This document shows, piece by piece, positions 20,887 to 38,441 of a DNA stretch of 64,000 nt (its first letter is position 1; the number at the start of each line of letters is the position of its first letter). Source of the DNA: Hydrogenophilales bacterium 28-61-23 (GTDB taxonomy: Bacteria > Pseudomonadota > Gammaproteobacteria > Burkholderiales > Thiobacillaceae). The stretch covers positions 310,001 through 374,000 of the forward strand of contig NCGJ01000002.1 in the NCBI GenBank assembly GCA_002281555.1. Direction: 5' to 3'. The notes below the pieces were generated by a model. That model made no database searches, had not been told where the DNA came from, and worked only from the letters and a program-made list of their open reading frames with translations. Position numbers and translations under genes: made by a program.

Positions 20887-21127
20887 AAGATCCGCCGCAA
20901 CCCCAATGGCGGCATCCCCGTCATGCACGAATCCGCTTTCGTCGATCCGCCGCCATCCTGCGCGGCAAGGTATCGGTCGAGGAAAACACCACCGACATCG
21001 ATTCCTATACCGAACTCGCTACCATCACGCCGGTGACACCGGGCCAGGCCGGCTGTTCGGAAAGCGTGGAGCAGGCGCCAATCGCGAGCTGGTGAAAGGC
21101 TACAAACGCATTCGTAACGAGTTCTGA
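20887..21127 (+). pseudogene. Truncated gamma-carbonic anhydrase copy
   Basis: The first ~100 bases match codons 2-36 of the intact gene at 15013 and the last ~120 bases match its final ~40 codons, ending in the identical KGYKRIRNEF. The middle, about 340 bases with all three zinc histidines, is deleted. The start ATG has become AAG and frames are shifted. It cannot make an active enzyme. It is convergent with the response regulator at 21144 and fills the gap between that gene and SulP-2. Confidence 0.9.
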
Positions 21128-21143: not shown

Positions 21144-22496
21144 TCATCCCTTCTCCTCCCCATACTTCTTCAACTTCCGCCACAGCGAAACCCGGTCGAT
21201 ACCGAGCATCGACGCGGCCAGGGTCTGGTTGCCGTTGGCTTCCTCCAGCACCCAGAGGATGTAGTCGCGTTCCTGTTCTTCCAGCGGAATGACGCGGCCG
21301 TCGCGGCGGCGGAAGGCGCGGATGCTGAGGTCTCTCAAATCGTCGGGCAGGTGGGCGGCTTCCAGGGTGTCGCCCTGACACAGCGCGACGCCGCGTTCGA
21401 TGATGTTTTCCAGTTCGCGTACGTTGCCGGGGAAGTCGTAGGCCTTGAGCAGGGCGAGGGCTTCTTCCGAGATCGAATGTACGGGTTTGCCCATGACCGG
21501 GGCGGCACGGTCGAGGAAATGCTGCGCCAATAAGGGAATGTCTTCGCGCCGGAGCGACAGGGGTGGGATGTGCAGGTTGACGACGTTGAGGCGGAAGTAG
21601 AGGTCTTGCCGGAAGCGGCCGTCGGCGACCCATTCCTTCATGTTGCGGTTGCTGGCGGCGATGAAGCGGACATCGACCTTCATCGGTTTGGTGCCGCCAA
21701 CCGGCAGGACTTCTTTTTCCTGGATCACGCGCAGCAGTTTGACCTGCATGGCGAGTGACATTTCGGTGACTTCATCAAGAAACAAGGTGCCGCCGTCTGC
21801 GGCGACCAGCAGGCCGGTCTTGCCGATGGCGCCGGTAAATGCACCCTTTTCGTGGCCGAACAGTTCGTTGGCGAGCAGTTCTTCGTTGAAGGCGCCGCAG
21901 TTCACCGCCAGGAAAGGCCCGTCGGCACGGCCGCCGTTGTCGTGCAGGCAGCGGGCGAACAACTCCTTGCCGGTGCCGGATTCGCCGGTGATCAGCACGT
22001 TGCAGCCGGTGGGGGCGACTTGCCGGGCCATGTCGAGCAGCTTTTGCATGCCGCCGTCGCGGGTGATGACGCGGGTGCGGCCTTCAAAGGCGTCGAGTTG
22101 GGCGCGCAGGGCGCGGTTTTCGCGTTTCAGGCGGATTTTTTCCAGCGCCTCGGCCACGGTTTTACGCACTTCGTCGAGGCGGAACGGCTTGGCGATGTAG
22201 TGGAAAGCGCCTTCTTTCATCGCTTCAACCGCTGTTTCCAGCGTGGCGTAGCCGGTGATCATGATGACTTCGGTGTCTGGGTGTTGCGCCTTGCAGCGGC
22301 GCAGTAATTGCATGCCGTCCACCTTGTCCATTTTCATGTCGGTCAACACCAGATCGAACGGCTGGCTGTCGAGCAGTTCCAGCGCGTGCGGGCCGCTTTG
22401 CGTGGCGGTGATGGCGTAGCCCTCCTTGCCGAGGACGTGTTCCAAGTTGCGTAGCGCGATGCGTTCGTCGTCGACGAGGAGGAGGCGGTTGGTCAT
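21144..22496 (-). CDS. Sigma-54-dependent NtrC-family response regulator 2
   Basis: 450-residue activator, paralogue of the regulator at 13599. Receiver domain with VDDERI and phosphoacceptor TDMKMD; AAA+ domain with GESGTGKE, GAFTGA and LFLDEV; C-terminal Fis-type HTH NQTLAASMLGIDRVSLWRK. All functional motifs are intact. The ATG at 22496 overlaps the kinase stop (ATGA). Likely targets are the sigma-54 promoter at 24039 and perhaps SulP-2, given the shared 22-bp element in both upstream regions. Confidence 0.93.
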   Translation of the reverse strand: MTNRLLLVDDERIALRNLEHVLGKEGYAITATQSGPHALELLDSQPFDLVLTDMKMDKVDGMQLLRRCKAQHPDTEVIMITGYATLETAVEAMKEGAFHYIAKPFRLDEVRKTVAEALEKIRLKRENRALRAQLDAFEGRTRVITRDGGMQKLLDMARQVAPTGCNVLITGESGTGKELFARCLHDNGGRADGPFLAVNCGAFNEELLANELFGHEKGAFTGAIGKTGLLVAADGGTLFLDEVTEMSLAMQVKLLRVIQEKEVLPVGGTKPMKVDVRFIAASNRNMKEWVADGRFRQDLYFRLNVVNLHIPPLSLRREDIPLLAQHFLDRAAPVMGKPVHSISEEALALLKAYDFPGNVRELENIIERGVALCQGDTLEAAHLPDDLRDLSIRAFRRRDGRVIPLEEQERDYILWVLEEANGNQTLAASMLGIDRVSLWRKLKKYGEEKG

Positions 22497-23938
22497 GGCG
22501 ATTCTCTTTCTGCCGCGGGCAGGCGCAGGCGGAATTCCGCACCGCCTTCCGGACGGTTGGCGACGCTGATGCAGCCGCCGTGTTCTTCGATGATTTCATG
22601 GGTGATGAATAGCCCCAGGCCACTGCCGTGGCCGATGGCCTTGGTGGTGAAGAAGGGGTCGAACACTTTCGGCAAAAGGTCGATCGGAATGCCGGGGCCG
22701 CTGTCAGCCAGGGTCAGGTCGATGACAGCGCTGCCAGGGCGACATTGGCCGGTGTGAGCGGGAAAGCCATCACCCTTGCCGACAATGCTTGCGCGCGCTG
22801 CGATGACCAGTTCCCCGTAGCTGCCCATTGCGTCATAGGCGTTGACGATGAGGTTGATTAGTACTTGTTGCAGGCGCGGGCGGTCGCCGCTGACGATCAG
22901 GTTGGGTGCCAAGTTGACGCGGACTTCGACGCCGGGCGGGCGTTTCGCTTTGAGGAAGCGCAGGGTTTCTTCCACCAGTTCGGCCAATGCCACCGGCGCG
23001 GGTTTGAATTCGCGGTCGCCGGCGAAATCCAGCAGGGTGCGCACGATGCGACGGGCGCGCAGGGTTTCGCTGTCGATGTCTTCGATGAGTTGGCTGCGGA
23101 AGCTCGGCGCGGCATCCGGGTCTTCCTTCAAAATCTGCGCCGACGATGAGATGTTGGACAGTGGGTTGTTCAGTTCATGCGCCACGCCAGAAAGCAAGGT
23201 GCCGAGCGAAGCCAGTTTTTCCGCGCGCACCAAGGTGTGCTGGCGGCGTTCCAGTTCGTCCAGGACATGGTTGAAGGCCTCTGCCAGTGAGACGAACTCA
23301 CGCTCCGGGCTGTCCAGCGCAAGACGCGTAAGCTGGCCGTTGGCCACGGCTTCCATGCGTAGTTCCATGGCTTGCAGGGGGCGGGTGACCTGGCGGGCCA
23401 ATAGCGCGCCGGTAAGCGTGAGCAGCGCCGCCACCACCGCGAGCGAGACCAGCAGATTGCGCTGGTGCGCTGCTAAAGCCGCATTGAGCGACTGGCGTTC
23501 AAGCGCGGCAAGACGTTCGCCGACGGTGACGATACGGTTGCCCAGGGCGCGCACTGTATTGGCCAGATCTTCGTTGAGCGGGGTGCGTGCGTGCGTTGCC
23601 ATGGCTGCGGTGTAACGGCCGAGGTCGTTGATAAGATTGCTTGCCGTGTTGCGGCCGGCCAGCGCATCGAGTGCTTCCGCATCGCGTTTGAGCAGGTCAC
23701 GGGCTCGTTCAGCGAAGCGCGCGTGGTCTTCCAGGTCGCTGGCCTGGCGATAGAGGAAATGATTTTTCTCGAAGCGGCGCATTTCCAGGGTTGCATCGGC
23801 CAGTTCGGCCACCTTGCTGCCTTCACGCGCTTTGTCCGCGATGCGGTCGAGTTCGATCAAAGCCACCGCCGAGAGGCCGACGATGAGCGCGGCGAGGGCG
23901 AGATAGACGAGGACGATCTTGGCTTGCAGGGAATGCAT
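22493..23938 (-). CDS. Sensor histidine kinase of SulP-linked two-component system 2
   Basis: 481-residue membrane kinase with a TM near residues 5-28, a helical periplasmic domain carrying EMRRFEKNHFLYR, a second TM near 150-172, HAMP, HisKA (GVAHELNNPLSN) and ATPase motifs (NLIVNAYDAMG, DSGPGIP, GSGLGLFI). ATG 23938 is preferred: a longer ORF begins at 23998 but would run through the conserved 22-bp element and TGCAAT repeats. The periplasmic motif shared with the first kinase suggests both sense related signals. Divergent from the SulP-3 / Ehr operon. Confidence 0.9.
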   Translation of the reverse strand: MHSLQAKIVLVYLALAALIVGLSAVALIELDRIADKAREGSKVAELADATLEMRRFEKNHFLYRQASDLEDHARFAERARDLLKRDAEALDALAGRNTASNLINDLGRYTAAMATHARTPLNEDLANTVRALGNRIVTVGERLAALERQSLNAALAAHQRNLLVSLAVVAALLTLTGALLARQVTRPLQAMELRMEAVANGQLTRLALDSPEREFVSLAEAFNHVLDELERRQHTLVRAEKLASLGTLLSGVAHELNNPLSNISSSAQILKEDPDAAPSFRSQLIEDIDSETLRARRIVRTLLDFAGDREFKPAPVALAELVEETLRFLKAKRPPGVEVRVNLAPNLIVSGDRPRLQQVLINLIVNAYDAMGSYGELVIAARASIVGKGDGFPAHTGQCRPGSAVIDLTLADSGPGIPIDLLPKVFDPFFTTKAIGHGSGLGLFITHEIIEEHGGCISVANRPEGGAEFRLRLPAAERESP

Positions 23939-23957
23939 GGGGCGAAGTGTAGCAGTG

Positions 23958-23999
23958 GTGTTGCAATATGAAATGCATGAACGCGTGATATTTTGCAAT
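23958..23999. promoter_or_regulatory. Candidate enhancer of the SulP-3 / Ehr operon
   Basis: GTGTTGCAATATGAAATGCATG (23958-23979) is the copy of the 22-bp element seen before SulP-2. It is followed by ATATTTTGCAAT ending at 23999, an imperfect inverted match of its TTGCAATAT core. The block sits 40-80 bp upstream of the sigma-54 promoter at 24039, the usual distance for an enhancer-binding protein site. Confidence 0.6.
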
Positions 24000-24038
24000 A
24001 ACCATGTAACTTCAGTGGGTTAGAGGAATTGTTCCGGT

Positions 24039-24054
24039 TGGCACGGTTGCTGCT
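24039..24054 (+). promoter_or_regulatory. Sigma-54 promoter of the SulP-3 / Ehr region
   Basis: TGGCACGGTTGCTGCT has an exact -24 box, correct GG-N10-GC spacing and a -12 box with one mismatch (CTGCT for TTGCW). It points toward the UspA-like gene, SulP-3 and the hydrogenase-4-like genes. The NtrC-type activator is encoded divergently. Confidence 0.88.
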
Positions 24055-24088
24055 TTAGGCAATGGGTCTAGATCAACCAGCTGCTGCC

Positions 24089-24226
24089 ATGCGCCCGACG
24101 CCTCATCAAACCTATCTCGCTGAACGCCTGCAATCTGCCAAGGGCTTCGGTTGGGATTGCGAAAAAACCGGATCGGCCTGGGTTGGTCTGCCCAGTTTGC
24201 TTCGCTGGCTGCGCGTAATTCGCTGA
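24089..24226 (+). CDS. Possible 45-residue leader ORF
   Basis: An ATG ORF starting MRPTPHQTYLAERLQ and ending WLRVIR lies between the sigma-54 promoter and the UspA-like gene. Its TGA is directly followed, in the same frame, by the GTG start of the next gene. No good ribosome site and no recognised family. It could be a small protein, a leader, or a 5' extension of the next gene cut off by a stop. Confidence 0.25.
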   Translation: MRPTPHQTYLAERLQSAKGFGWDCEKTGSAWVGLPSLLRWLRVIR

Positions 24227-24601
24227 GTGAAACGCCGCATCGTCGTCGCCCTGCGCCCGGTTTCACCGGTGGAGCGCCTGCTGAAAGTGGGCGCATCGCT
24301 GTGTCGGCGCATGGAGGCGGAGCTGGAAGTGCTGGCCGATCCGATCCGTTCGGACTGGGCCGAGATCGAAGCGCGTCTGTCCGCGCTGGAAAAAGACGGC
24401 GTCGCTTGCCGTTTGACGCCAGCTCCCGGGCTGGATGCCAAGCATGTCGTCGAGCATGCTCGACGACATGAATGTGTCAGTTCCGTCGTCGTCGGAAGAC
24501 CCGCCGCCTGGGCTGGCGAGGGGCACGTCGATCCCTGGAGCAAGCTCGAATGTCCGCTGGTGGCGGCCTCCGATCACCCCGATTTACCTGAAGAAAAGTA
24601 A
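24227..24601 (+). CDS. Small UspA-like protein before SulP-3
   Basis: 124-residue cytoplasmic protein with a GTG start. The opening RRIVVALRPVSPVERLLKVG and the later HECVSSVVVGRPAA follow the beta1 and beta4 ends of the universal stress fold; the nucleotide-binding glycine motif is incomplete. It ends three bases before the SulP-3 start, so they are co-translated. Usp-like partners accompany three of the four SulP genes here, as neighbours or as fused domains. Confidence 0.6.
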   Translation: MKRRIVVALRPVSPVERLLKVGASLCRRMEAELEVLADPIRSDWAEIEARLSALEKDGVACRLTPAPGLDAKHVVEHARRHECVSSVVVGRPAAWAGEGHVDPWSKLECPLVAASDHPDLPEEK

Positions 24602-24604
24602 GCC

Positions 24605-26725
24605 ATGAACAAAATTGCTCGTTTCCTTCCTTTCCTGCGCTGGTTCCCGATGGGCGGCGATACCGTGAAGGCCGACTTCATGGCCGGTATTACGGTCGCT
24701 CTGGTGCTGATTCCGCAGTCGATGGCCTACGCGCAACTGGCCGGTCTGCCGGCCTATTTCGGCTTGTATGCGGCGTTTTTGCCGGTGGCCGTGGCGGCGT
24801 TGTGGGGTTCGTCGAACCAGCTCGGCACCGGCCCGGTGGCGGTGGTGTCGCTGTTGACCGCTTCCAGTCTGGCGACTTTGGCCGCGCCCGGTTCCGAGAG
24901 CTTCGTCGCGTTGGCCATCATGCTGGCGCTGCTGGTCGGCATCATTCAGTTGCTGCTTGGCGTGTTCAAGCTGGGCGTCATCGTCAACTTCCTGTCGCAT
25001 CCGGTCATTGTCGGTTTCACCAACGCGGCGGCGATCATCATCGCGCTGTCGCAGGTGTCCAAGCTGTTCGGCGTGCCGATGGGGCGCAGCGAGCACTTCA
25101 TCAATGACATCGTCGGCGTGGTCAAGCTGATCGGCGAGACGCATATCCCGACGCTGTTGATGGGCATCCTGGCGATTGCCATGATGTGGGGCATCAAGAA
25201 ATACAAGCCGAAATGGCCTGGCGTGCTGATTGCCGTCGCGGTGACCACAACCTTGTCCTGGGGCATCGGTTTCGAGAAGAGCGGCAGCGCCAAGGTCGAT
25301 CAGGTCGCCAGCGCCGATGTGCAAGCCCTGGTCCGGGAGATGGTTCAGACCGAACAGCGCGTGGCCGAGGTCAACGCGGAAATCACCGCCAAATCCAGCC
25401 AGCTGGCCGTGGCCGGCAAGGCCCACGGCGAGCAAAGCCAGGCGGCATTGAGCTTGAAATACGAGATCGATGTGCTGCGGCTCAAGCTGGAAGATCGCGA
25501 AATGGAAAACGCCAAGCGCATGCGCGCCTTGCGCAAGATGGCCTTCCAGCGTGGCAGCGATGCTCAGGGCGAGGGGAAGCTCTTCCTGGAAGGCGAGGTG
25601 CCCCAGGGTGTGGCGACCGATGGCGTGCGCTGGCATATCAGGAAGGCGAAAGGGAATGAATTGAAGTTGGCCGGGGGCGGAGAAGTGGTCGGCAATATTC
25701 CGGAGGGCTTGCCCAGCATCGCGATGCCGACTCTGGACATGAGCAAGCTGGGCGCGCTGCTGTCGGCCGCGCTGGTGATCTCGCTGGTCGGTTTCATGGA
25801 GGCGATTTCGATCGCCAAGGCGATCGCCGCCAAGACCAAGCAGCGTCTCGACCCGAACCAGGAGTTGATCGGCCAGGGCTTGTCCAACATCGTCGGCTCG
25901 ATGACCCAGGCTTTCCCGGTGTCCGGCTCGTTCTCGCGTTCGGCGGTCAACCAGAACTCCGGCGCGAAAACCGGCATGAGTTCGGTCTATACCGCCATCT
26001 TCGTGCTGATCACGCTGCTGTTCCTGACGCCGCTGCTGTATCACCTGCCGCAGGCCGTTCTGGCCGCGATCATCATCATGGCGGTGATCGGCCTGGTGAA
26101 TTTCTCGGCGGTGAAACACGCCTGGCAGGCGCACAAGCACGATGGCGCCGCTTCGGTTGTGACCTTTGTCGCCACGTTGGCGGCGGCGCCCCACCTGGAT
26201 CACGGCATCATGGTCGGCGCCGGCCTGGCGCTGATCCTGTTCCTGATGCGCACCATGAATCCGCGCGTGGCGCAATTGGGACGTTTCAAGGACGGCACGC
26301 TGCGCGACATCAAGGTCAACCCGGGCATTCCGACCAGCGAACATGTCGTGGCGATGCGCTTCGACGGGCAACTCTATTTCGGCAACGTGTCGTACTTCGA
26401 AGACACCGTGCTGGAAGCGCTGGCCGACCATCCCAAGGTCAAATACTTTCTGGTGGTGGGAGACGGCATCAATCAGCTCGACGCTTCTGGCGAGGAAGTG
26501 ATACACCACCTGGTCGAACGCCTGCGCAGCACCGGCGTGGAACTGGTCTTCTCCGGCCTGAAAAAGCAGGTGCTCGACGTGATGCGCGCCACCGGCCTGT
26601 TCGATCTGGTTACCCAGGCCAATATTTTCGCCACCGAGGATCAAGCCATCGCCGCGATCTACGAACGCTTGGGCGACGAAGCGGGTGAAGACCTGTTTTG
26701 CGCGGTGAAACCCGCAACGGCGTGA
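24605..26725 (+). CDS. SulP anion permease with helical insertion (SulP-3)
   Basis: 706-residue SulP transporter, close paralogue of SulP-2. Signatures IPQSMAYAQLAGLPAYFGLY, GSSNQLGTGPVA, QELIGQGLSNIVGSMTQAF; C-terminal STAS domain (about 590-700) with IKVNPGIPTSEHVVAMRFDG. The same extra segment of about 135 residues (about 226-362, many Glu, Lys, Gln) splits the transport domain before VGNIPEGLP. It is followed at 80 bases by the first Ehr-complex gene on the same strand with no obvious terminator between, so one transcript is likely. Bicarbonate, sulfate or another anion is possible. Confidence 0.9.
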   Translation: MNKIARFLPFLRWFPMGGDTVKADFMAGITVALVLIPQSMAYAQLAGLPAYFGLYAAFLPVAVAALWGSSNQLGTGPVAVVSLLTASSLATLAAPGSESFVALAIMLALLVGIIQLLLGVFKLGVIVNFLSHPVIVGFTNAAAIIIALSQVSKLFGVPMGRSEHFINDIVGVVKLIGETHIPTLLMGILAIAMMWGIKKYKPKWPGVLIAVAVTTTLSWGIGFEKSGSAKVDQVASADVQALVREMVQTEQRVAEVNAEITAKSSQLAVAGKAHGEQSQAALSLKYEIDVLRLKLEDREMENAKRMRALRKMAFQRGSDAQGEGKLFLEGEVPQGVATDGVRWHIRKAKGNELKLAGGGEVVGNIPEGLPSIAMPTLDMSKLGALLSAALVISLVGFMEAISIAKAIAAKTKQRLDPNQELIGQGLSNIVGSMTQAFPVSGSFSRSAVNQNSGAKTGMSSVYTAIFVLITLLFLTPLLYHLPQAVLAAIIIMAVIGLVNFSAVKHAWQAHKHDGAASVVTFVATLAAAPHLDHGIMVGAGLALILFLMRTMNPRVAQLGRFKDGTLRDIKVNPGIPTSEHVVAMRFDGQLYFGNVSYFEDTVLEALADHPKVKYFLVVGDGINQLDASGEEVIHHLVERLRSTGVELVFSGLKKQVLDVMRATGLFDLVTQANIFATEDQAIAAIYERLGDEAGEDLFCAVKPATA

Positions 26726-26806
26726 GGGGCGATGATAATGGCGAGCACATCATGGTCGGCCGTGTCGCCCGCCAGGCCAACAACACTGAACACATGAGCG
26801 AATTCC

Positions 26807-28819
26807 ATGCTTGAGCTGCTTCCCCTCGACTGGGCCTGGGCCATCGTCCTGTACTGGCTGATCCTGGCCGGGACCGGCCTGTTGATGCAGTCCCGTCCGC
26901 GTCTGATCACCGGCCTGGTGTTCCCCCTGGGGGCCGTGGGGGCGCTGGCCATCTCGGCGGTCGGGCTGATGGGGCTGATCCAGCCCGCGTCGCATTTCAT
27001 CCTGCCCATCGGTCTGCCCGATTTGCCCTTCCATCTGCGCCTGGATGCCCTGTCCGCCTTCTTTCTGGTGCTGCTGGGCGGCGCGGCGTTCGGCGTGACG
27101 ATCTACGCGGTGGGTTACCTGCGCGGCATGGAGCGCGGCTCACTGGCCCTGCTGGCGATGTGGTACCACCTGTTTCTGGCCGGCATGACCATGGTGTTGC
27201 TGGCGGACGACGCCTACGCCTTCATGGTGGCCTGGGAGGTGATGGCCCTGTCCTCCTATTTCCTGGTGACCACGGACCACGATGTGCCGGAGATTCGGCG
27301 CGCCGGCTTCCTCTACCTGCTCATCGCCCACGTCGGCGCCGTGTCCCTGCTGCTGTGCTTCGGCGTGTTGCAGGGTGGCGCGGTCGCCAACGCCAGCGCC
27401 TACACCTTCGACTACATGCGCAACGCGGAGATGACGCCGTTCTGGGCCTCGGCGGCCTTCCTGCTGGCCCTGTTCGGTTTCGGCGCCAAGGCCGGCCTGG
27501 TGCCCCTGCACGTATGGCTGCCCGAAGCCCATCCGGCGGCGCCGTCGCCGGTTTCCGCCCTCATGTCGGGGGTCATGCTGAAGACCGCCATCTACGGCCT
27601 GTTGCGCGTCACCTTCGACCTGCTCAACGCGCAGCAGGGCTGGTGGGGCACCCTGGCCCTGGCTCTGGGCCTGATCACCGCCTTGTACGGCGTCATCTTC
27701 GCCGCCGTGCAGTCGGACATGAAGCGGCTGCTGGCCTGGTCGTCCATCGAGAACATCGGCATCATCATCGCCGGCTTCGGCCTCGCCCTGATTTTCTACG
27801 CCGACGGCAAGGGCGCCCTGGCGGCCCTGGCCATGACCGCCCTGCTCTACCACTCGCTCAATCACGCCTTCTTCAAGGGGCTGCTGTTCGTCGGCACCGG
27901 TACCGTGCTGCACGCCACCGGGGCGCGCAACCTGGGTCGCCTGGGCGGGTTGATCCGCTATCTGCCCTGGACCGCCTGGCTGACCCTGATCGGCGCCTTG
28001 TCCATCGCCGGTCTGCCGCCGTTGAACGGTTTCGTCTCCGACTGGCTGCTGTTGCAGGCCTTCCTGCTCACCCCGGGACTGAGCCAGCCCTACCTGAACA
28101 TGGTGATTCCGGTGGCCGCGGCCACGGTGGCCCTGGCGTCGGCCCTGGCGGCCTATGTCATGGTGAAGTTCTACGGCGTGATCTTCCTCGGCCAGCCCCG
28201 GGAACCGGGCCTAGTCCATGCGCGGGCGACCAAGTGGCCGGAGCGTTTCGGCATGATCTGGCTGGCGTCCGGCTGTGTGCTGCTGGGCGTGTTTCCGACC
28301 CAGGTCATCGGCTGGATCTCGCCGGCCGTGCTCTTGCTCACCGGCCAGTCCATGGTCAACGACGGCAACTGGCTGACCCTGGCGCCGGTGGATGCGGACC
28401 GGGCCAGCTATGCGCCTCTGGTGTTCCTCGCCGTGGTGCTGGTCGTGCTGCTGCTCACCTTCATCATCGTGCGCAAGATCTACCATGGCCGCGTGCGCCG
28501 CGCCGATCCCTGGGATTGCGGCTATCCCGAGCAGACCGCGCGTATGCAGGACAGCGCCGAGGGCTTCGGCCAGCCCGTCCGCCAGATCTTCGAGTCCTTC
28601 ATGCGGGTGGAGCGGGAGACCCCGGACCCGTTCGACCGCAAGCCCCAATACCGGGGCGACAGCCGGGACAGGCTCTGGCTCCTGCTCTACGCGCCCATCG
28701 CCCGCCTCACGGACTGGATATCGGATCAAGCGGGACGGGTGCAACACGGCCGCATCCAGTGGTACCTGATCTACAGCTTCGCCACCCTGATCTTCCTGCT
28801 CGTCTTCGTGACACGGTGA
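26807..28819 (+). CDS. hyfB: Hydrogenase-4 component B-like proton-pumping subunit
   Basis: 670-residue polytopic membrane protein of the NuoL/HyfB/Mrp antiporter family, with 14-16 hydrophobic segments. The conserved core includes WEVMALSSYFLV (about residue 140), HVWLPEAHPAAPSPVSALMSG with its lysine-proline helix region, DMKRLLAWSSIENIG and YHSLNHAFFKGLLF. These provide the glutamate, lysine and histidine residues of the proton channel. First gene of a six-gene hyfBCEFGI-like operon. It is longer than DabB, and no DabA follows, so it is not the known DAB system. Confidence 0.9.
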   Translation: MLELLPLDWAWAIVLYWLILAGTGLLMQSRPRLITGLVFPLGAVGALAISAVGLMGLIQPASHFILPIGLPDLPFHLRLDALSAFFLVLLGGAAFGVTIYAVGYLRGMERGSLALLAMWYHLFLAGMTMVLLADDAYAFMVAWEVMALSSYFLVTTDHDVPEIRRAGFLYLLIAHVGAVSLLLCFGVLQGGAVANASAYTFDYMRNAEMTPFWASAAFLLALFGFGAKAGLVPLHVWLPEAHPAAPSPVSALMSGVMLKTAIYGLLRVTFDLLNAQQGWWGTLALALGLITALYGVIFAAVQSDMKRLLAWSSIENIGIIIAGFGLALIFYADGKGALAALAMTALLYHSLNHAFFKGLLFVGTGTVLHATGARNLGRLGGLIRYLPWTAWLTLIGALSIAGLPPLNGFVSDWLLLQAFLLTPGLSQPYLNMVIPVAAATVALASALAAYVMVKFYGVIFLGQPREPGLVHARATKWPERFGMIWLASGCVLLGVFPTQVIGWISPAVLLLTGQSMVNDGNWLTLAPVDADRASYAPLVFLAVVLVVLLLTFIIVRKIYHGRVRRADPWDCGYPEQTARMQDSAEGFGQPVRQIFESFMRVERETPDPFDRKPQYRGDSRDRLWLLLYAPIARLTDWISDQAGRVQHGRIQWYLIYSFATLIFLLVFVTR

Positions 28820-28823
28820 TTCC

Positions 28824-29768
28824 ATGAACGCTGGCACCCTCCTGCAAATCGCCCAAACCCTGCTGGCCATCGCGCTGGCCCCCCTGCTGCTGGGCTGGAC
28901 CAACCAGTGCCGCGCCTGGATGCAGGGCCGCGGCGCGCCCCCGATCACCCAGCCCTATCGCACCCTCAGGAAGCTGTTCCACAAGGATGCGGTGATTGCC
29001 CACACGGCCTCGCCCCTGTTCCGCTTCGCGCCCTACATGATCTTCGCCTGCATGGCCCTGGCGGCGGGCATCGTGCCGATGATTGCCAACGACCTGCCGT
29101 TCTCGCCGGCGGCGGACGCCATCGCGCTGGTCGGGGTGTTCGCCCTGGCGCGGGTGTTCCAGGCCCTGGCCGCGATGGACATCGGCACTTCGTTCGGTTC
29201 TCTCGGCGCGCGCCGCGAGATGCTGGTGTCGTTCCTGGCCGAACCGGCCCTGCTCATGGTGTTCTTCACCGCCAGCCTGATCTCCCAGTCGACCGAACTG
29301 CCCCATATCGTCGAGACCCTGGCCCACAAGGAGTTCGCCATCTATCCCAGCCTGGCGTTCGCGGCAGTGGCGTTCTGGATGATCTCGGTGGCGGAGAACG
29401 CCCGCATCCCGGTGGACAACCCGACCACCCACCTGGAACTGACCATGATCCACGAGGCCATGATTCTGGAATATTCCGCCCGCCATCTGGCCCTGATCGA
29501 GTGGGCGGTGGCCTTGAAGCTGTTCACCTATTCGGCCCTGGGCATCGCCCTGTTCCTGCCCTGGGGCATCGCCCCGGCGGGCGACTACGCCGCCCTGCCC
29601 CTGGCCCTGCTGGCCCTGTTCGTCAAGCTGGCCGGCGGCGGCGCGGTGCTGGCCTTCATGGAGACCATCAGCGCCAAGATGCGTTTGTTCCGAGTGCCGG
29701 AATTCCTCGGCACCGCCTTCCTGCTGGCGGTGCTGGGCATGCTGATCCATTTCCTGCTGGAGGTGTGA
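28824..29768 (+). CDS. hyfC: Hydrogenase-4 component C-like membrane subunit (NuoH family)
   Basis: 314-residue membrane subunit with about eight hydrophobic segments. It contains the NuoH-family signatures GRGAPPITQPYRTLRKLF near residue 35 and ENARIPVDNPTTHLELTMIHEAMILEYSGR-like sequence around residue 190 (here EYSARH), the loop that contacts the NuoB/D-like subunits. It anchors the peripheral arm in the membrane and forms the entry of the proposed proton path. It starts five bases after the HyfB-like gene. Confidence 0.92.
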   Translation: MNAGTLLQIAQTLLAIALAPLLLGWTNQCRAWMQGRGAPPITQPYRTLRKLFHKDAVIAHTASPLFRFAPYMIFACMALAAGIVPMIANDLPFSPAADAIALVGVFALARVFQALAAMDIGTSFGSLGARREMLVSFLAEPALLMVFFTASLISQSTELPHIVETLAHKEFAIYPSLAFAAVAFWMISVAENARIPVDNPTTHLELTMIHEAMILEYSARHLALIEWAVALKLFTYSALGIALFLPWGIAPAGDYAALPLALLALFVKLAGGGAVLAFMETISAKMRLFRVPEFLGTAFLLAVLGMLIHFLLEV

Positions 29769-29790
29769 TGCAAACCGGAACGCATAGACA

Positions 29791-29874
29791 CGTAGGATGG
29801 GTTGAGCGCAGCGAAACCCATCGATTCGCACAGGCCATCACGATGGGTTTCGCTGGCGCTCAACCCATCCTACG
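29791..29874. repeat. Long palindromic repeat (REP/MITE-like) between hyfC and hyfE
   Basis: A 33-base arm (29791-29823) beginning CGTAGGATGGGTTGAGCG pairs with a 34-base arm (29841-29874) ending CTCAACCCATCCTACG, with one bulged base and a 17-base loop. This GTAGGATGGGTT repeat type is widespread as dispersed elements in beta- and gammaproteobacteria (from memory). It is the only break in an otherwise tight operon and would fold strongly in the mRNA, possibly changing the ratio of upstream to downstream subunits. Confidence 0.9.
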
Positions 29875-29883
29875 GGAGCCGAC

Positions 29884-30546
29884 ATGTCCCTGACCTACCA
29901 CCTCCAGATCGTCAACCTGCTGGCCGCGTTGTTGCTGCTGATCTCGTTCGCCATGCTGTCCCAGCGCCGCATCGTCGGCCTGGTGACCCTGTTCGCCTGG
30001 CAGGGCGCGGCGCTGGCGACCTCCACCGCCATCGTCGCCTGGTCGACCGGCCAGCATCACCTGTACTACTCGGCGGCGCTGACCCTGGTGCTCAAGGTCA
30101 TCGCCATGCCCTGGTTCTTCTACCGGCTGATCAAGAAGCTGGATGTCGATCGCGATGTCGAGACGATGATCAACATCCCGACCACCATGCTGATCGGCAT
30201 CGCCCTGGTGATCTTCGCCTTCAACCTGGCCCTGCCCATCTCCCAGATGGCCGGCACGGTGATGCGCTCCACGCTGGGCATCGCCATGGCCACCGTGTTG
30301 CTCGCCTTCCTGATGATGATCACGCGCAGCAAGGCCATCCCGCAGGTGATCGGCTTCTTGGCCATGGAAAACGGCCTGTTCTTCGCCGCCACCAGCGCCA
30401 CCTACGGCATGCCGCTGGTGGTGGAAATGGGCGTCGCCCTGGACGTGCTGGTGGGCGTGTTCGTACTGAGTATCTTCTTCTTCCAGATCCGGGAAACTTT
30501 CGATTCCCTGGACCTGAAGCACATGGAAAAGCTGAAAGAACGCTGA
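29884..30546 (+). CDS. hyfE: Hydrogenase-4 component E-like membrane subunit
   Basis: 220-residue membrane protein with about seven hydrophobic segments, of the HyfE family whose C-terminal half is related to NuoK. The region IPQVIGFLAMENGLFFAA near residue 155 carries the conserved glutamate of the NuoK-type channel. It begins 9 bases after the palindromic repeat and ends 3 bases before the HyfF-like gene. It belongs to the proton-translocating membrane arm. Confidence 0.9.
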   Translation: MSLTYHLQIVNLLAALLLLISFAMLSQRRIVGLVTLFAWQGAALATSTAIVAWSTGQHHLYYSAALTLVLKVIAMPWFFYRLIKKLDVDRDVETMINIPTTMLIGIALVIFAFNLALPISQMAGTVMRSTLGIAMATVLLAFLMMITRSKAIPQVIGFLAMENGLFFAATSATYGMPLVVEMGVALDVLVGVFVLSIFFFQIRETFDSLDLKHMEKLKER

Positions 30547-30549
30547 CAA

Positions 30550-32001
30550 ATGGAAATCTACTGGGTACTCGGCATCCCGCTGGTCGGCGGGGTTTTTCTC
30601 GCGCTCTGGGGCAATCGACGCAATGCGCCGGAAATCAACGCCCTGTTCAGCCTGCTCACCTTGATCGCGGCGGCCTGGCTCACAGCGCGCGTGATCGATT
30701 ACGGGCCGATGCTGATCGGCGACGGCTGGTTCTTCATCGACTCGTTCAACGTGTTCTTGGTGGCACTGACCGCTTTCGTGGCGTTCACGACCGCGTTGTT
30801 CTCGCGCCCCTACATGCGCATCGAGAAGGAGCACGGCCGCCTCAACGACAAGCGCCTGCGTCTGTACCACAGCAGCTACCAGATCTTCATTGGCGCCATG
30901 TTGCTGGCGCTGACCACCAACAACATGGGCATCCTCTGGGTGTCGATGGAAGCGGCGACGCTGACCACCGTGCTGCTGGTTTCGCTGTACCGCACCCCGG
31001 CTTCGCTGGAAGCGGCGTGGAAGTATTTCATTCTGTGCGGCGTCGGCATCGCGCTGGCGCTGTTCGGCACCATCCTGCTCTATTTCGCGGCGGAGAAGAT
31101 CCTCGGATCGGGCGGCACGGCGCTGCTGTGGACGCATCTGAACGGGGTCAAGACGCAACTGGAGCCGACCGTGCTGCAACTGGCCTTCGTCTTTCTGCTG
31201 GTGGGTTACGGCACCAAGGTCGGCCTGGCGCCGCTGCACAGCTGGTTGCCCGACGCCCACGCCGAGGGCCCGACGCCGGTGTCCGCCGTGCTGTCCGGCC
31301 TGCTGCTCAACGTCGCGCTGTACGCGGTGATGCGCTGTAAGGTGTTGGTGGACGGCGCCATGGGCACCGACCTGGCGGGCAACCTGATGATGGGCTTCGG
31401 CCTGTTCTCGGTGGTGCTGGCAGCCTTCCTGATCAAGCGCCAGAGCGACGTGAAGCGCATGTTCGCCTATTCCTCGATCGAGCACATGGGCCTGATCACC
31501 TTCGCCTTCGGCATGGGCGGCGCGGTGGCCAACTTCGCCGGCCTGCTGCACATGACCATGCACTCGCTGACCAAGTCCGCCATCTTCTTCGCCGTGGGCC
31601 ACGCCACCCAGAGCGCCGGCACCCAGATGATGGACGGCATCCGCGGCCTGATCCGCACCAACCCCACCATCGGCTGGGGCCTGATGCTGGGCACCATCGC
31701 CATCCTCGGCGTGCCGCCGTTCGGCGTGTTCGCCAGCGAGTTCCTGATCATCACCACCGCCATGCACGAACATCCCTGGGCCACGCCCTTCCTGCTGCTG
31801 GCCCTGGGCGTGGCGTTCGCCTCCATCTTCGGCAAGGTGCAGCCCATGGTGTTCGGCGAGACGGAATTGCCCAAGTTGCCACACCAGCCCGCCCTGACCC
31901 CGGTGTTCATCCACCTTGGTCTGGTCTTGATGATGGGCCTGTTCATCCCGCCCTATCTGGCCGATTGGTATCGCCAGGCGGCGGCGTTGTTGGGAGGTTG
32001 A
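30550..32001 (+). CDS. hyfF: Hydrogenase-4 component F-like proton-pumping subunit
   Basis: 483-residue polytopic subunit of the NuoM/N/HyfF antiporter-like family. Core motifs are WVSMEAATLTTVLLV (about residue 130), GLAPLHSWLPDAHAEGPTPVSAVLSG, DVKRMFAYSSIEHMG and HSLTKSAIFFAVGH, giving the channel Glu, Lys and His residues. A second antiporter-like subunit besides HyfB means that the complex could move at least two ions per cycle. It ends one base before the large-subunit gene. Confidence 0.92.
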   Translation: MEIYWVLGIPLVGGVFLALWGNRRNAPEINALFSLLTLIAAAWLTARVIDYGPMLIGDGWFFIDSFNVFLVALTAFVAFTTALFSRPYMRIEKEHGRLNDKRLRLYHSSYQIFIGAMLLALTTNNMGILWVSMEAATLTTVLLVSLYRTPASLEAAWKYFILCGVGIALALFGTILLYFAAEKILGSGGTALLWTHLNGVKTQLEPTVLQLAFVFLLVGYGTKVGLAPLHSWLPDAHAEGPTPVSAVLSGLLLNVALYAVMRCKVLVDGAMGTDLAGNLMMGFGLFSVVLAAFLIKRQSDVKRMFAYSSIEHMGLITFAFGMGGAVANFAGLLHMTMHSLTKSAIFFAVGHATQSAGTQMMDGIRGLIRTNPTIGWGLMLGTIAILGVPPFGVFASEFLIITTAMHEHPWATPFLLLALGVAFASIFGKVQPMVFGETELPKLPHQPALTPVFIHLGLVLMMGLFIPPYLADWYRQAAALLGG

Positions 32002-32002
32002 G

Positions 32003-33550
32003 ATGAAGATCGGCGATCACGATTGGGCCTTCGCGCCCCAGGCCGGCAGCAACGCCATCTGGCGCGGGCGGGTGGAAGTGGCGCAGCTGGCGGCCCTGGC
32101 CCGGGCGGTGAAGGAGGAGGGCGGGCAACTGGTGGCGCTGTGGGGTTCGGATGACCGCCATCTGGGCGGCGCCTACAGCGTCCACATCGCCTTCCTCACC
32201 GGCGCCGGCCTGGTCTGGGTGAGCAGCGCGTTGGGTGGCGTGTTGGCCGGCGAGGCGCCGGCCTACCCGGATCTGGCCCACATCTTCCCCCAGGCCGACC
32301 GCATGCAGCGCGCCACCTTCGATCTCCTGGGCCTCCAGGCCGAGGCCGCGGTGGACCAGCGCAAGTGGCTGCGCCACGGCGCCTGGGCGGAAGGCAGCTT
32401 CCCCCTGCGCAAGGACTTCCAGGCCGAGCCGGTGCGGGAGCTGGACGCCTATCCCTTCATCCAGGTGGAAGGCGACGGCGTGCACGAAATCCCGGTCGGG
32501 CCGATCCACGCCGGCACCATCGAGCCGGGCCACTTCCGCTTCTCCATCATCGGCGACCGGGTGCTGCGCCTGGAACAGCGCCTGGGCTACACCCACAAGG
32601 GCACGGAAAAACGCTTCGAGGGCATGGATCTCGCCACCGGCGCCCAATTGGCCGGGCGCATCTCGGGCGATTCTCACAGCGCCTACGCCTGGGCCTATTG
32701 CATGGCCGTGGAGAGCGCCACCGGCAGCGTCGTGCCGGAGCGCGCCCTGTGGCTGCGCGCCCTGTTCCTGGAGGTGGAACGCATCGCCAACCACCTGGGC
32801 GACCTGGGCTATCTGGGCAATGACGTGGCCCTGGCCTTCGGCTTCATGCAGTTCTGGCGCCTGAAGGAGGACTGGCTGCGCCTGTCCGCCCGGTTGTTCG
32901 GCCACCGCTACCTGTTCGACCGCATCGTGCCGGGCGGCGTCGCCGCCGATCTGACCGACGCCGCCGCCCTGCTGGCCGGCGCGGACCGGCTGGAGGCGGA
33001 GGTGCGCGACCTGAAGGCCATCTACGACGAGCACTCGGTGTTGCAGGACCGCTTCGCCAACACCGGCACCTGCAAGCCGGCCCTGGCCGCGCGCCTGGGC
33101 CTGGCCGGCCTGGCCGGCCGCGCCAGCGCCCAGGCCTGGGATGCCCGGGTCCAGTTTCCCCAGACGCCTTACCAGCACCTGGACGTGAACATGGCGACCC
33201 AGCGCCGCGGCGACGTGTGGGCTCGGGCCGAGGTGCGCTTCGCCGAGGTGTATGAATCCCTGCGCCTGCTGCGGGAGATCGCCCGGCGCCTGCCGGCCGG
33301 ACCCTTGAGCGTCGCCCTGGCTCCCGCCGGCCAGAGCGTGGAGGGCCTGGGCTGGGTGGAAGGCTGGCGCGGCGACGTGCTGGTGGCCGCGCGTATCGGC
33401 GCCGACGGCCGCCTGGACCGGGTGCACGCCCACGACCCGTCGTGGCAGAACTGGCCCCTGCTGGAGGTGGGCATCCTGGGCAACATCGTGCCGGACTTCC
33501 CCCTCATCAATAAATCCTTCAACCTGAGCTATTCCGGCCAGGACTTGTGA
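32003..33550 (+). CDS. hyfG: HyfG-like large subunit lacking NiFe ligands (Ehr type)
   Basis: 515-residue fusion of a NuoC-like N-terminus (about 1-140) and a NuoD/hydrogenase-like large-subunit domain (about 155-515). Conserved framework is present: GPIHAGTIEPGHFRF, LEQRLGYTHKGTEKRFEG and ERIANHLGDLG. Where group 4 hydrogenases have RxCGxC, this protein has RISGDS (S221, S224). The C-terminal Cys-x2-Cys is also absent; it ends NLSYSGQDL without a cleavable tail. It therefore cannot bind a NiFe centre and should not be a hydrogenase. This places it with energy-converting-hydrogenase-related (Ehr) complexes. Confidence 0.9.
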   Translation: MKIGDHDWAFAPQAGSNAIWRGRVEVAQLAALARAVKEEGGQLVALWGSDDRHLGGAYSVHIAFLTGAGLVWVSSALGGVLAGEAPAYPDLAHIFPQADRMQRATFDLLGLQAEAAVDQRKWLRHGAWAEGSFPLRKDFQAEPVRELDAYPFIQVEGDGVHEIPVGPIHAGTIEPGHFRFSIIGDRVLRLEQRLGYTHKGTEKRFEGMDLATGAQLAGRISGDSHSAYAWAYCMAVESATGSVVPERALWLRALFLEVERIANHLGDLGYLGNDVALAFGFMQFWRLKEDWLRLSARLFGHRYLFDRIVPGGVAADLTDAAALLAGADRLEAEVRDLKAIYDEHSVLQDRFANTGTCKPALAARLGLAGLAGRASAQAWDARVQFPQTPYQHLDVNMATQRRGDVWARAEVRFAEVYESLRLLREIARRLPAGPLSVALAPAGQSVEGLGWVEGWRGDVLVAARIGADGRLDRVHAHDPSWQNWPLLEVGILGNIVPDFPLINKSFNLSYSGQDL

Positions 33551-33560
33551 GAACGGCTGC

Positions 33561-34094
33561 ATGGCAACCCATCTGATCCTGAAAAAGATATTCCAGACCG
33601 GCATGGTCTCGGAAGCGCCCCCCGAGGCCGATCCCGCCCTGCGCACCCGGGAACAAGAGCTGCACGCCGAGATACTCAAGGTGTTCGGCCAGGCCATCGC
33701 CATCCGCCACGTGGATGCCGGCTCCTGCAACGGCTGCGAGCTGGAGATCCACGCCATCAACGGCCCCCACTACAACATCGAGGGCATGGGCATCAAGTTC
33801 GCCGCCAGCCCGCGCCATGTCGACGTGCTGCTGGTGACCGGCCCGGTCTCGCGCAATCTGGAGACGGCCCTCAAGCGCACCTACGACGCTACCCCCGAGC
33901 CCAAATGGGTGGTGGCCATGGGCGACTGCGCCAGCGGCTGCGGCGTGGGCGGCGCCCTGTACGGGGAGAACTACGCCACCTGCGGCAAGATCTCCAGCGT
34001 CATCCCGGTGGATGTGGAAATCCCGGGCTGTCCGCCCGATCCCGTCACCCTGCTCAAGGGCATCCTGGCGGCGGTGAGCGGCGACCGGAAGTGA
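33561..34094 (+). CDS. hyfI: HyfI/NuoB-like [4Fe-4S] small subunit
   Basis: 177-residue peripheral subunit. Ligands of the proximal [4Fe-4S] cluster are intact: CNGCE near residue 56, GDCASGCG near residue 115 and GCPPDP near residue 151. So electron transfer through this subunit is still possible although the partner large subunit lacks a NiFe site. Ten bases separate it from the large subunit. No 8Fe ferredoxin-like subunit (HyfA/HyfH type) is encoded in this operon, so the electron donor or acceptor is unknown. Confidence 0.92.
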   Translation: MATHLILKKIFQTGMVSEAPPEADPALRTREQELHAEILKVFGQAIAIRHVDAGSCNGCELEIHAINGPHYNIEGMGIKFAASPRHVDVLLVTGPVSRNLETALKRTYDATPEPKWVVAMGDCASGCGVGGALYGENYATCGKISSVIPVDVEIPGCPPDPVTLLKGILAAVSGDRK

Positions 34095-36717: not shown

Positions 36718-37782
36718 CTACAACTCTTCCAGCCGACGGGAGCCCCAATCCAGCACGGCGGTGCGCACGTGCATCTTTTTGGCCAGTTCGGGGCGCAGGC
36801 GTTCGATCTCCTCGGCGGCGAATTTCGACAGGAAGCGCGCCTTGAGTTGCGCCCGCGCCCGGTCGACGCCGATTTCCTCGTAAGGCGCCGAGGCGAGCAG
36901 CAGGAAGCCGTCGTCCGGGATGCGCCCGGCCTGCATGTTCGATTCGATGATACCGGCCGCCTTGCGGATCGGGTCGGCCAGGTCCGGGCTGTAGGGGCCG
37001 ATGATCAGGGCCAGATTGGGCATGTGCAGGAAGTCGAAGCCGCGTCCGACGCAGATGATCCATTCCCGATGTTCGATATTGAGTTCGCGCGAGGTCTGGC
37101 GCACTTCGGCGATGTGTTCCAGGTTGCCCAGCAGCAGCGGCAGCAGGTCGGTGCGCACCTGGGTCGGCATGTCCGGGAACAGCGTGGCCAGGCGTTGCGC
37201 CAGGTGAGGCACTTCGGCCGGGTCGAGTTCGGCCAGGTTGAGGCTGCCGCCGTGCTTGCCAACCCCGGCGCCATGCAGAATGAGGGCGTCCTCGTCGGTT
37301 TCGAAACCGCACACCAGTGGATAGACGGTGTCATGGCCGAGGCCGAAGGTGTATTCCACCTGGGCGCTTATTTCCCGGGTGTGGGCGTGCGCGGCCTCGG
37401 TGTCGTAGTTGAAGCCGGCGCAGCCGCGATGCGGGTCGCCCTTGGAATAGTGATAGGTGATCAGCACCAGCACGCGCCGCCCGGCATGCACCACCTGCTG
37501 CACGTTGTGCGCCAGCACCTCGCCCAGATGCGGCCAGCCCAGGTTGAACATGCCGCCCAGGTTGCGGAACGGCTGGATGATGCCCTTGGGCGTCCGGGTG
37601 GCGATGGGGATGTTGATGCGCCCGTCCATGCACTTGAGCACCAGGATGGCGGTGGGGTGTCGGGCCAGATAACGCTCGCGGGCGAGCCAGGTCTCCGGGC
37701 TGCTGTAGGTTTCCGCATGTTGCGCGGCGATTTCGAACAGCCAGTCGATGCGGCTTTCGATGGGGCGGCTGTGGATGTCCAT
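36718..37782 (-). CDS. Carbonic anhydrase-like protein (CsoSCA / beta-class ligands)
   Basis: 354-residue protein without a signal peptide. It shows a beta-class carbonic anhydrase metal site: C51 in KCMDGRIN with the D53-R55 dyad, then HYSKGDPHRGCAGF with H111, H118 and C121. Cys-x-Asp-x-Arg followed by His and Cys about 60-70 residues later is the pattern of beta-enzymes and of the carboxysome shell enzyme CsoSCA, where His-x10-Cys spacing is used (H111 to C121 is close to this). No carboxysome gene is nearby. A Zn hydrolase of other function is possible. Confidence 0.7.
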   Translation of the reverse strand: MDIHSRPIESRIDWLFEIAAQHAETYSSPETWLARERYLARHPTAILVLKCMDGRINIPIATRTPKGIIQPFRNLGGMFNLGWPHLGEVLAHNVQQVVHAGRRVLVLITYHYSKGDPHRGCAGFNYDTEAAHAHTREISAQVEYTFGLGHDTVYPLVCGFETDEDALILHGAGVGKHGGSLNLAELDPAEVPHLAQRLATLFPDMPTQVRTDLLPLLLGNLEHIAEVRQTSRELNIEHREWIICVGRGFDFLHMPNLALIIGPYSPDLADPIRKAAGIIESNMQAGRIPDDGFLLLASAPYEEIGVDRARAQLKARFLSKFAAEEIERLRPELAKKMHVRTAVLDWGSRRLEEL

Positions 37783-37954
37783 ATGCTACGGCCCTTGCGG
37801 TTGTCGATAGTGGTGACCATGCCGAAGGTGCGGAGTGCGGTCAAGCATCGGGTTTTTCGCGGCGCGGCGTAGTCCATCTTGAAGGGACAAGCATGGTTGA
37901 CAAGTTCACTCGGTCAATCCGAAACTGCCCGCTCTGTTTGGATCAAGTCTAAAC

Positions 37955-37979
37955 AAACCCGCATCTCCGGCGCGGGTTT
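37955..37979 (+). promoter_or_regulatory. Hairpin in the rubrerythrin leader
   Basis: AAACCCGC (37955-37962) pairs with GCGGGTTT (37972-37979), upstream of the rubrerythrin ATG at 38016. With only three T residues it is a weak terminator. Just before it lies GTTT-N11-AAAC, which may be a regulator site. No other content is seen in the 230-base gap. Confidence 0.35.
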
Positions 37980-38015
37980 CCTGCCGGGGAAAACTTCAAC
38001 GACAAGGAGTACCCC

Positions 38016-38435: not shown

Positions 38436-38441
38436 GAGGCT

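Follow-up and report, generated by a model that had tools for sequence, protein, structure and literature searches.

An Ehr-type complex encoded behind a SulP transporter and exchanged with DAB: a candidate energised system for inorganic-carbon acquisition

In the portion of PMC13144422 available to us, DAB is described as a one-way carbonic anhydrase that is driven by the proton-motive force and composed of a NuoL-like subunit and DabA. For Acidithiobacillus ferrooxidans, the accessible part of PMC6458275 presents the can2-sulP pair, in which the SulP protein, encoded beside a carbonic anhydrase gene, is predicted to carry HCO3-, and cites BicA as verified; neither "hyf" nor "hydrogenase" occurs in the main text of that paper. 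The same organism has a cluster annotated as a group 4 hydrogenase, AFE2149-54; going by the locus tags in the sections consulted of PMC2621215 and PMC6458275, the next gene is cbbM (AFE2155). Elsewhere, carbonic anhydrase genes beside formate hydrogenlyase genes were remarked upon in another physiology (PMC10880623, in part), and a similarly named cluster was interpreted as a formate hydrogenlyase (PMC5178258, in part). Here we analyse a 64,000-nucleotide stretch of the genome of Hydrogenophilales bacterium 28-61-23, called the window throughout, in which the gene for SulP-3, an anion transporter of the SulP/SLC26 type, is followed by six genes, hyfBCEFGI, encoding a complex I relative of the Ehr type.

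Ehr complexes are defined, as we understand them, by a core of the group 4 type and by the loss of the Ni-binding CxxC motifs; HyfBCEFGI has both features. We know of no established function for them. What is new here is a cassette swap, in which Ehr and DAB replace each other behind the same SulP. We consider it reasonably likely, from the sequences compared, that the operon serves energised acquisition of inorganic carbon in an autotroph that has RuBisCO but no carboxysome shell genes, with the Ehr complex as the energised partner. The initial annotation of the window was aware of no described SulP-Ehr system, and, among the papers listed in our searches of the open-licence PMC literature, we likewise found none linking SulP, Ehr and DAB, a scope that leaves unlisted papers, subscription papers and preprints outside.

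Exchange of hyf and DAB cassettes behind SulP-3

Among the first 25 genomes of the family, seven had DabA instead of HyfG, and in 7/7 an orthologue of SulP-3 (67-78% identical) was located directly upstream of dabB-dabA. Loci L191 and L192 have the complete left flank in common with the window (NtrC1, HK1, the small gene and SulP-3), followed by dabB-dabA, and in L192 DabA matches PF10070 over its full length (1.2e-227). DNA of locus L194 (G012) aligns with the window in blocks of 84-87% identity through the small gene and SulP-3 up to 26700, and similarity returns at 36718-39047 (2.3 kb, 90%), over the CsoSCA-like and iron-sulfur (FeS) protein genes. The intervening segment measures 10.0 kb in the window (hyfBCEFGI and about three open reading frames, ORFs) versus 9.6 kb in L194 (dabB, dabA and three more PF00361 genes). 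At L196, a CsoSCA-like gene adjoins the DAB operon.

Twelve DabA loci have a close dabB. SulP-3 is directly upstream and on the same strand in nine of these and divergent beside dabB in two; in the last, L227, it heads a row on one strand made of SulP-3, gamma-carbonic anhydrase, hyfBCEFGI, dabB and dabA. Once seven genomes with a partial or unfetched DabA had been dropped, one of the 12 loci, L227, shared its genome with hyf, versus 5.2 expected (p 0.011); the contig of L227 equals that of L059 in length. The remaining DabA loci that were fetched lie mostly beside CbbR, often with cbb genes, and without SulP; the exceptions are L209 and L216, which have a SulP-3-like gene upstream.

A quick tree of 51 SulP-3-type proteins, made without bootstrap and with labels given by hand to L074 and L098 (hyf) and to L229 and L231 (divergent dab), requires at least four changes between hyf and dab labels. 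The exchange therefore occurred several times. In this tree L038, a hyf locus, clusters with the dab loci L191, L192 and L194 (SH-aLRT 100).

As a separate observation, three further antiporter-like genes lie behind dabA in the DAB operons of L192 and L194 (PF00361 was tested in L194 only). The DAB operon may thus form a multi-antiporter membrane arm that extends beyond the DabB-DabA pair.

Distributions were also compared over whole genomes, by Fisher tests that all ignore kinship. In the window's genus (23 genomes), Ehr was present in 13 genomes, DabA in 6, both in none and neither in 4 (p 0.002). Across the 117 genomes of the family, we counted 49 with Ehr, 41 with DabA, 10 with both versus 17 expected, and 37 with neither (p 0.006). 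Ehr-type HyfG was found in 56 of 397 genomes of the phylum; Ehr and DabA shared four genomes versus 10 expected (p 0.023), and RuBisCO and DabA avoided each other too (p 0.010), two weak matches of 73 having been dropped from the DabA counts.

RuBisCO of form I or II was present in 33/56 Ehr genomes of the phylum and in 50/341 others (odds ratio 8.4, p 9e-12). In a control from which the 39 listed members of the RuBisCO-rich family f58 were removed, the odds ratio was 8.9 (p 3e-8). These counts leave aside 24 of the 107 RuBisCO positives, which were weaker, form IV-like or fragmentary, four of the 24 being Ehr genomes; three strong fragments were retained. Kept apart from Ehr were the genomes of formate hydrogenlyase type, 11 of the 67 HyfG-positive ones (31-33% identity), of which 0/11 had RuBisCO I/II (p 0.13, not significant alone).

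The operon and its Ehr-type complex

On the + strand, the sigma-54 site is followed by a gene of 124 codons, SulP-3 and hyfBCEFGI (Table 1). The initial annotation had placed these genes correctly, and family matches agree with its reading of SulP-3 and hyfBCEFGI-like genes on one strand. Its sigma-54 promoter was borne out as well: TTGGCACGGTTGCTGCT matches 13/14 consensus positions, which was equalled in 1/500 shuffles of the 608-base stretch. With a threshold of at least 11 consensus matches, a sigma-54 site was found in 28/42 regions upstream of SulP-hyf or SulP-dab, the window's among them, several of the 28 reaching a shuffle p of only 0.03-0.1. Loci with a divergent kinase or activator have a site scoring 10 to 14 of 14, whether the cassette is hyf or dab (shuffle p 0 to 0.09). 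The first gene had been called UspA-like, a name to be dropped, as its 124-aa product gave no Pfam match for a Usp domain at E up to 1. Counting the window's and those of the dab loci L191, L192 and L194, 22 distinct homologous ORFs were collected.

As grounds for refutation, the initial annotation had named a terminator or separate promoter between SulP and hyf, together with missing linkage elsewhere; both points were examined and neither refuted its proposal. In the gaps 26725-26807 (SulP-3/hyfB) and 29768-29884 (hyfC/hyfE), no terminator-like and no sigma-70-like site was found. Elsewhere on the + strand three terminator-like matches occur, one ahead of the first gene at 24178, one within SulP-3 at 26605 and one within hyfF at 30574; over the whole region, terminator-like matches number 6 versus 5.8 in shuffles and sigma-70-like ones 1 versus 1.5, which is no excess. 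The 124-aa gene, SulP-3 and hyfBCEFGI are predicted to be co-transcribed as one operon. The palindrome between hyfC and hyfE was considered as a terminator and rejected: because it is dispersed in 12 copies and is not among the terminator-like sites, we read it as an insertion.

Table 1. Features of the window (positions in the window; one line per feature)
Feature	Position	Strand	Basis
Fourth SulP	9502..11307	-	PF00916
Kinase-like ORF beside NtrC2	12097-13602		38% identity to HK1
NtrC2, second NtrC-type activator	13575..14963	+	Sigma54_activat
Gamma-carbonic anhydrase (Cam/CcmM type), behind NtrC2	15013..15573	+	aligned to Cam 3oup, His ligands kept
SulP with C-terminal Usp domain	15644..18238	-	PF00916, PF00582
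SulP paralogue of SulP-3, 57% identical	18646..20769	-	PF00916, STAS
NtrC1, NtrC-type sigma-54 activator, divergent	21144..22496	-	best NCBIfam AtoC, ZraR, NtrC, all below cut-off
HK1, histidine kinase, divergent	22493..23998	-	HisKA, HATPase_c, HAMP
Sigma-54 -24/-12 promoter site TTGGCACGGTTGCTGCT	24038..24054	+	GG-N10-GC
Small conserved protein, 124 aa, first gene behind sigma-54 site	24227..24601	+	homologous ORFs in other loci
SulP-3, SulP/SLC26-type anion transporter with STAS domain	24605..26725	+	PF00916, PF01740, TIGR00815
hyfB, antiporter-like (NuoL/HycC-type) subunit	26807..28819	+	PF00361; NF005086 above cut-off; HycC of 7z0s 5.7e-61
hyfC, NuoH-like subunit	28824..29768	+	PF00146 1.7e-32
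Dispersed palindromic repeat between hyfC and hyfE	29792..29873	.	12 genome copies of one arm, up to 2 mismatches
hyfE, small membrane subunit	29884..30546	+	NCBIfam only: NF008556 90 bits, below cut-off 136
hyfF, second antiporter-like subunit	30550..32001	+	PF00361; NF005045 above cut-off; best PDB relative 6u8y_H
hyfG, NuoCD/HycE-like large subunit without Ni ligands	32003..33550	+	PF00346, PF00329; aligned to HycE 7z0s
hyfI, NuoB-like subunit	33561..34094	+	PF01058; aligned to MbhJ 6cfw_J
CsoSCA-like carbonic anhydrase	36718..37782	-	PF20686 29.8 bits, above cut-off 21.5; Zn ligands aligned to 8thm

The core common to complex I and group 4 is complete, with two antiporter-like subunits and NuoH-like, NuoCD-like and NuoB-like ones. 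HyfB and HyfF align over most of their length to antiporter-like subunits of solved complexes, their PDB relatives being HycC, 6cfw_H, 6u8y_H and Mrp-type antiporter subunits. Over the 476 residues that align HyfG with HycE of the Escherichia coli formate hydrogenlyase, SGDS replaces CGIC and the C-terminal cysteines are lost; by pattern, RxCGxC or a C-terminal CxxC was found in 0/141 distinct HyfG sequences. HyfI has retained the four Cys ligands of one [4Fe-4S] cluster. From SulP-3 to 34094 only the six hyf genes are present, with no ferredoxin-like FeS subunit among them (the search was confined to the cluster). By the features that we take to define Ehr, the sequence of HyfBCEFGI is that of an Ehr-type complex, not of a hydrogenase. 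An Ehr complex devoid of hydrogenase chemistry had indeed been announced, and the missing nickel-ligand cysteines of HyfG agree with it.

Some loci carry more than one copy of these genes. Tandem hyf clusters in L049 (G023) and L119 show that two Ehr complexes can be encoded next to each other in one genome; in L049, the genes of the second copy share 41-62% identity with those of the window, HyfG 49%. In L166, L170 and L173, of family f58, two tandem hyfB genes follow a gene for a helix-turn-helix-cupin regulator, and the cluster to which this regulator belongs is represented in 15 loci.

SulP-3 matches PF00916 (1.2e-104), the STAS domain (1.6e-17) and TIGR00815 (425 bits, above the cut-off of 380). 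Its relatives in PDB include both AtSULTR4;1 and BicA, and it misses the BicA equivalog cut-off, with 139.6 of 880 bits. Likeness to BicA or to sulfate transporters thus does not single out its substrate. The PF00916 matches of the genome amount to four genes, every one inside the window, from 9.5 to 26.7 kb. Between the transporter halves, SulP-3 and its paralogue at 18646 have an insertion of about 125 residues that looks like a coiled coil by eye; in SulP-3 it spans residues about 231-357 (window 25295-25675). Orthologues of 574-603 aa found in the same slot (L036, L033, L040, L064 and L201) have none or little of it.

Conservation of the linkage and surrounding genes

After removal of duplicates, 143 hyfG loci were available. 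In 106 of them the fetched stretch included hyfB (37/143 lacked it), and in 92 of these it reached 3 kb or more beyond hyfB on the upstream side (14 fell short); upstream counts refer to the 92. Carriers of the operon include Sulfuricella sp. T08 (L100) and Parasulfuritortus cantonensis LSR1 (L075). Loci were classed by identity of their HyfG to the window's as close (above 66%), intermediate (52-66%) or distant (below 52%). A SulP gene on the same strand, at most 4 kb upstream of hyfB, was found in 26/31 close, 13/38 intermediate and 1/23 distant loci, and SulP, TauE or gamma-carbonic anhydrase in 29/31, 14/38 and 1/23, respectively. The linkage of SulP is therefore conserved but clade-bound, and not general to Ehr complexes: the conservation expected by the initial annotation holds among close relatives and not beyond.

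The suggestion had also been made to look for SulP or carbonic anhydrase genes around HyfG homologues lacking RxCGxC. Both occur near hyfB. Gamma-carbonic anhydrase is at most 4 kb upstream of hyfB in 14/92 loci and at most 0.9 kb away in 12 of those 14. Downstream, among the 76 loci with at least 6 kb on that side, cbb genes lie within 9 kb in 11/23 close, 1/31 intermediate and 0/22 distant loci, and a CsoSCA-like gene in 4/23, 2/31 and 0/22. TauE/SafE is upstream of hyfB in 3/92 loci (L039, L090 and L051, the last from the genome that also contains L031), and genes of the CitMHS/Na-sulfate-symporter type occur close to hyfB in L132 and in L043, whose genome also contains L085. Many loci named Gallionella, or related to these, have the six hyf genes next to metG, apbC, dcd or dnaE and have no SulP there.

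The single distant locus with SulP upstream is L155 (G204), from another part of the phylum and without a RuBisCO match. Here a different SulP gene precedes hyfB by 34 bases, and the divergent two-component system is of the OmpR and not the NtrC type; it is apparently an independent SulP-Ehr pairing. In L132 (G257), a RuBisCO genome of another family, gamma-carbonic anhydrase is 11 bases upstream of hyfBCEFGI, together with the CitMHS-type gene, a SulP-3-like sequence and a divergent TauE.

In the window, the three His residues that we take to be the Zn ligands of Cam are aligned in the gamma-carbonic anhydrase, as they are in that of L063. The CsoSCA-like protein misses the full CsoSCA equivalog TIGR02701 (43.5 of 241 bits); its CxDxR motif and Zn-ligand His and Cys, at positions presumed from CsoSCA, are invariant in 7 sequences, the window's among them. 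Next to its gene, a GlpC-like FeS/CCG protein is encoded at 38509-39834 (224 of 278 bits), and the pair is kept downstream of the DAB cassette in L194. The 3.5 Mb genome itself has two strong genes for RuBisCO large subunits about 100 kb away on the same contig, one in a form I cbbLSQO cluster with CbbR and the other taken to be form II. It has no match to BMC microcompartment shell proteins and none to DabA (PF10070). Short fragments resembling the C-termini of NtrC1 and of gamma-carbonic anhydrase lie between intact genes at 18392-18528 and 20988-21124, perhaps as remnants of local duplication.

Function of the SulP-Ehr operon and known systems

The hyf cassette replaces DAB behind the same SulP, sometimes with the same regulators or the same carbonic anhydrase, and for this reason the two most simply have the same job. 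This Ehr branch probably serves energised inorganic-carbon uptake, interchangeably with DAB, and so would help the cell gather CO2. SulP-3 would import HCO3-, and HyfBCEFGI would couple ion flow through HyfB, HyfF and HyfC to net accumulation of HCO3-, as DabB-DabA would in sister species. In the likeliest form, the proton-motive force would make CO2 hydration one-way, at a carbonic anhydrase (gamma or CsoSCA-like) located at or near the complex, HyfBCEFGI carrying no carbonic anhydrase subunit of its own. We favour such a use of the proton-motive force over a redox pump because a Ni site is missing from HyfG and no ferredoxin-like subunit is encoded in the cluster to bring in electrons. Substrate, direction, coupling step and physical contact are what we infer here; gene content, loss of the Ni ligands with the FeS ligands kept, linkage, sigma-54 sites and the Ehr/DAB swap are observed directly. 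The "energised anion/CO2 system" of the initial annotation thus stands at the level of the system, through linkage, carbonic anhydrases, RuBisCO neighbours and the DAB swap, which make no choice among its three variants (a gradient, physical coupling or CO2 hydration). A wider generalisation, which we hold only tentatively, is that the Ni-less Ehr complexes of RuBisCO bacteria may be a second type of energised CO2/HCO3- pump, lacking the catalytic subunit of DAB but interchangeable with it. The proton-motive force would then drive one-way hydration of CO2 by a carbonic anhydrase, gamma or CsoSCA-like, docked on the complex, while SulP would serve as the arm for HCO3-.

Several observations weigh against a role in carbon uptake. 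Ehr and DabA coexist in 10/117 family genomes, and in five of these they are on one contig within 15 kb. No RuBisCO I/II was counted in 23/56 Ehr genomes, although four of them have weaker matches. Avoidance between Ehr and DabA is not significant inside the RuBisCO genomes of the phylum set (1 shared, p 0.23), and relatedness among genomes enters none of the Fisher tests. The control of the cassette differs among versions: L194 has no HK1 and its NtrC1 is reduced to a C-terminal part of 338 aa, while other regulators are found at several DAB loci. Gamma-carbonic anhydrase is also present in DAB-type islands (L191 and L192) and hence is not specific to Ehr. Outside the branch, SulP linkage fades (13/38 loci at 52-66% HyfG identity, 1/23 below 52%), and the association between SulP upstream and cbb, CsoSCA or DAB downstream is only a trend (12/30 versus 3/22, p 0.062). 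Finally, some loci have TauE/SafE where SulP would be, or CitMHS-type genes close by, which could suggest other anions.

As the main alternative, Ehr could generate a gradient, as a pump or an Mrp-like exchanger, with SulP-3 using the H+ or Na+ gradient to take up HCO3- and no CO2 chemistry by the complex. HyfB and HyfF are antiporter-like, with HycC, 6cfw_H, 6u8y_H and Mrp-type subunits as relatives, and the gene order, with SulP upstream of hyfB on the same strand at many loci, fits this account almost as well. Against it, many Ehr loci have no SulP, and DAB, its replacement, is proposed to hydrate CO2 and is reportedly probably sodium-independent (PMC13144422, in the part available), so that a plain supplier of gradient is a poorer functional match. 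We regard a mere gradient generator as unlikely, if still worth keeping in mind.

Somewhat less likely again is that Ehr has a general role in respiration or pH homeostasis and merely hitch-hikes in a sigma-54 operon with SulP in this lineage, the DAB swap being a coincidence in a recombination-prone island. The SulP-less clusters beside metG, apbC, dcd or dnaE in Gallionella-named and related genomes, the 22/23 distant loci without SulP upstream and the ten family genomes having both Ehr and DabA would all be at ease with such a role. Coincidence fits poorly with at least four label changes behind the same SulP, with the tandem SulP-gamma-carbonic anhydrase-hyf-dab row of L227 and with zero co-occurrence in the genus.

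It appears improbable that, in a sulfur oxidiser, SulP and TauE/SafE carry sulfate, sulfite or thiosulfate and Ehr performs sulfur redox chemistry in the manner of the archaeal membrane-bound sulfane reductase (MBS). TauE/SafE upstream of hyfB in 3/92 loci and CitMHS/Na-sulfate-symporter-type genes in two genomes (L043 and L132) speak for it, as does the top PDB relative of HyfF, 6u8y_H, which we take to be MBS. Yet DAB occupies the slot in sister species, carbonic anhydrase genes are in the operon or island, Ehr follows RuBisCO over the phylum, and the cluster lacks a ferredoxin-like subunit. As to a group 4 hydrogenase or formate hydrogenlyase, suggested by the names of the best-scoring NCBIfam models (hydrogenase 4 subunits B and F), it is almost certainly wrong and was rejected on the lost Ni ligands (0/141 HyfG with RxCGxC or a C-terminal CxxC, SGDS for the CGIC of HycE), 0/11 RuBisCO among genomes of formate hydrogenlyase type pointing the same way without being significant alone.

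Ehr-type complexes are widespread (56/397 phylum genomes), and the hydrogenase names of their best-scoring family models cannot be right. That they are naturally exchanged with a pump whose function is known points to a concrete and testable role. If energised carbon uptake by this branch is true, autotrophs without carboxysomes own an unrecognised device for acquiring carbon, and an orphan family gains a function across the autotrophs of the phylum. It would also bear on the coupling between ion flow and chemistry in relatives of complex I, and on the engineering of carbon fixation.

Among known systems, MBS is set apart by a ferredoxin-binding FeS subunit, presumably one of its features, for which the hyf cluster has no gene (the rest of the genome was not searched). 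The E. coli formate hydrogenlyase-1 (7z0s) is homologous through HyfB-HycC, HyfG-HycE and HyfI-HycG, but the hyf cluster has neither the Ni site nor genes for formate dehydrogenase or polyferredoxin. AFE2149-54 of A. ferrooxidans is likewise a six-gene complex I-like cluster, adjacent to cbbM as read from locus tags only; one of the papers cited above proposes a hydrogenase or formate role for it. With can2-sulP and BicA, the window shares a SulP-type transporter that has a carbonic anhydrase gene nearby, and SulP-3 differs from BicA in its score, 139.6 bits versus a cut-off of 880. The cyanobacterial NDH-1MS offers an analogy, a complex I relative in carbon concentration (PMC13144422, in part), and differs in that the hyf cluster has no ferredoxin-like subunit. 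Closer are the DAB/DAC pumps, which resemble the operon in their PF00361 membrane subunits (here hyfB and hyfF), in the same slot behind SulP-3, in the divergent regulators shared by L191 and L192 and in the CsoSCA-like neighbour of L194; unlike them, the window's genome has no DabA, the complex has six complex I-like subunits with an FeS cluster, and any carbonic anhydrase is a separate protein. Other Ehr complexes have the same group 4-type core, the same loss of Ni ligands and the same proximal FeS ligands, and what distinguishes the present one is its association with SulP, carbonic anhydrases, RuBisCO and DAB.

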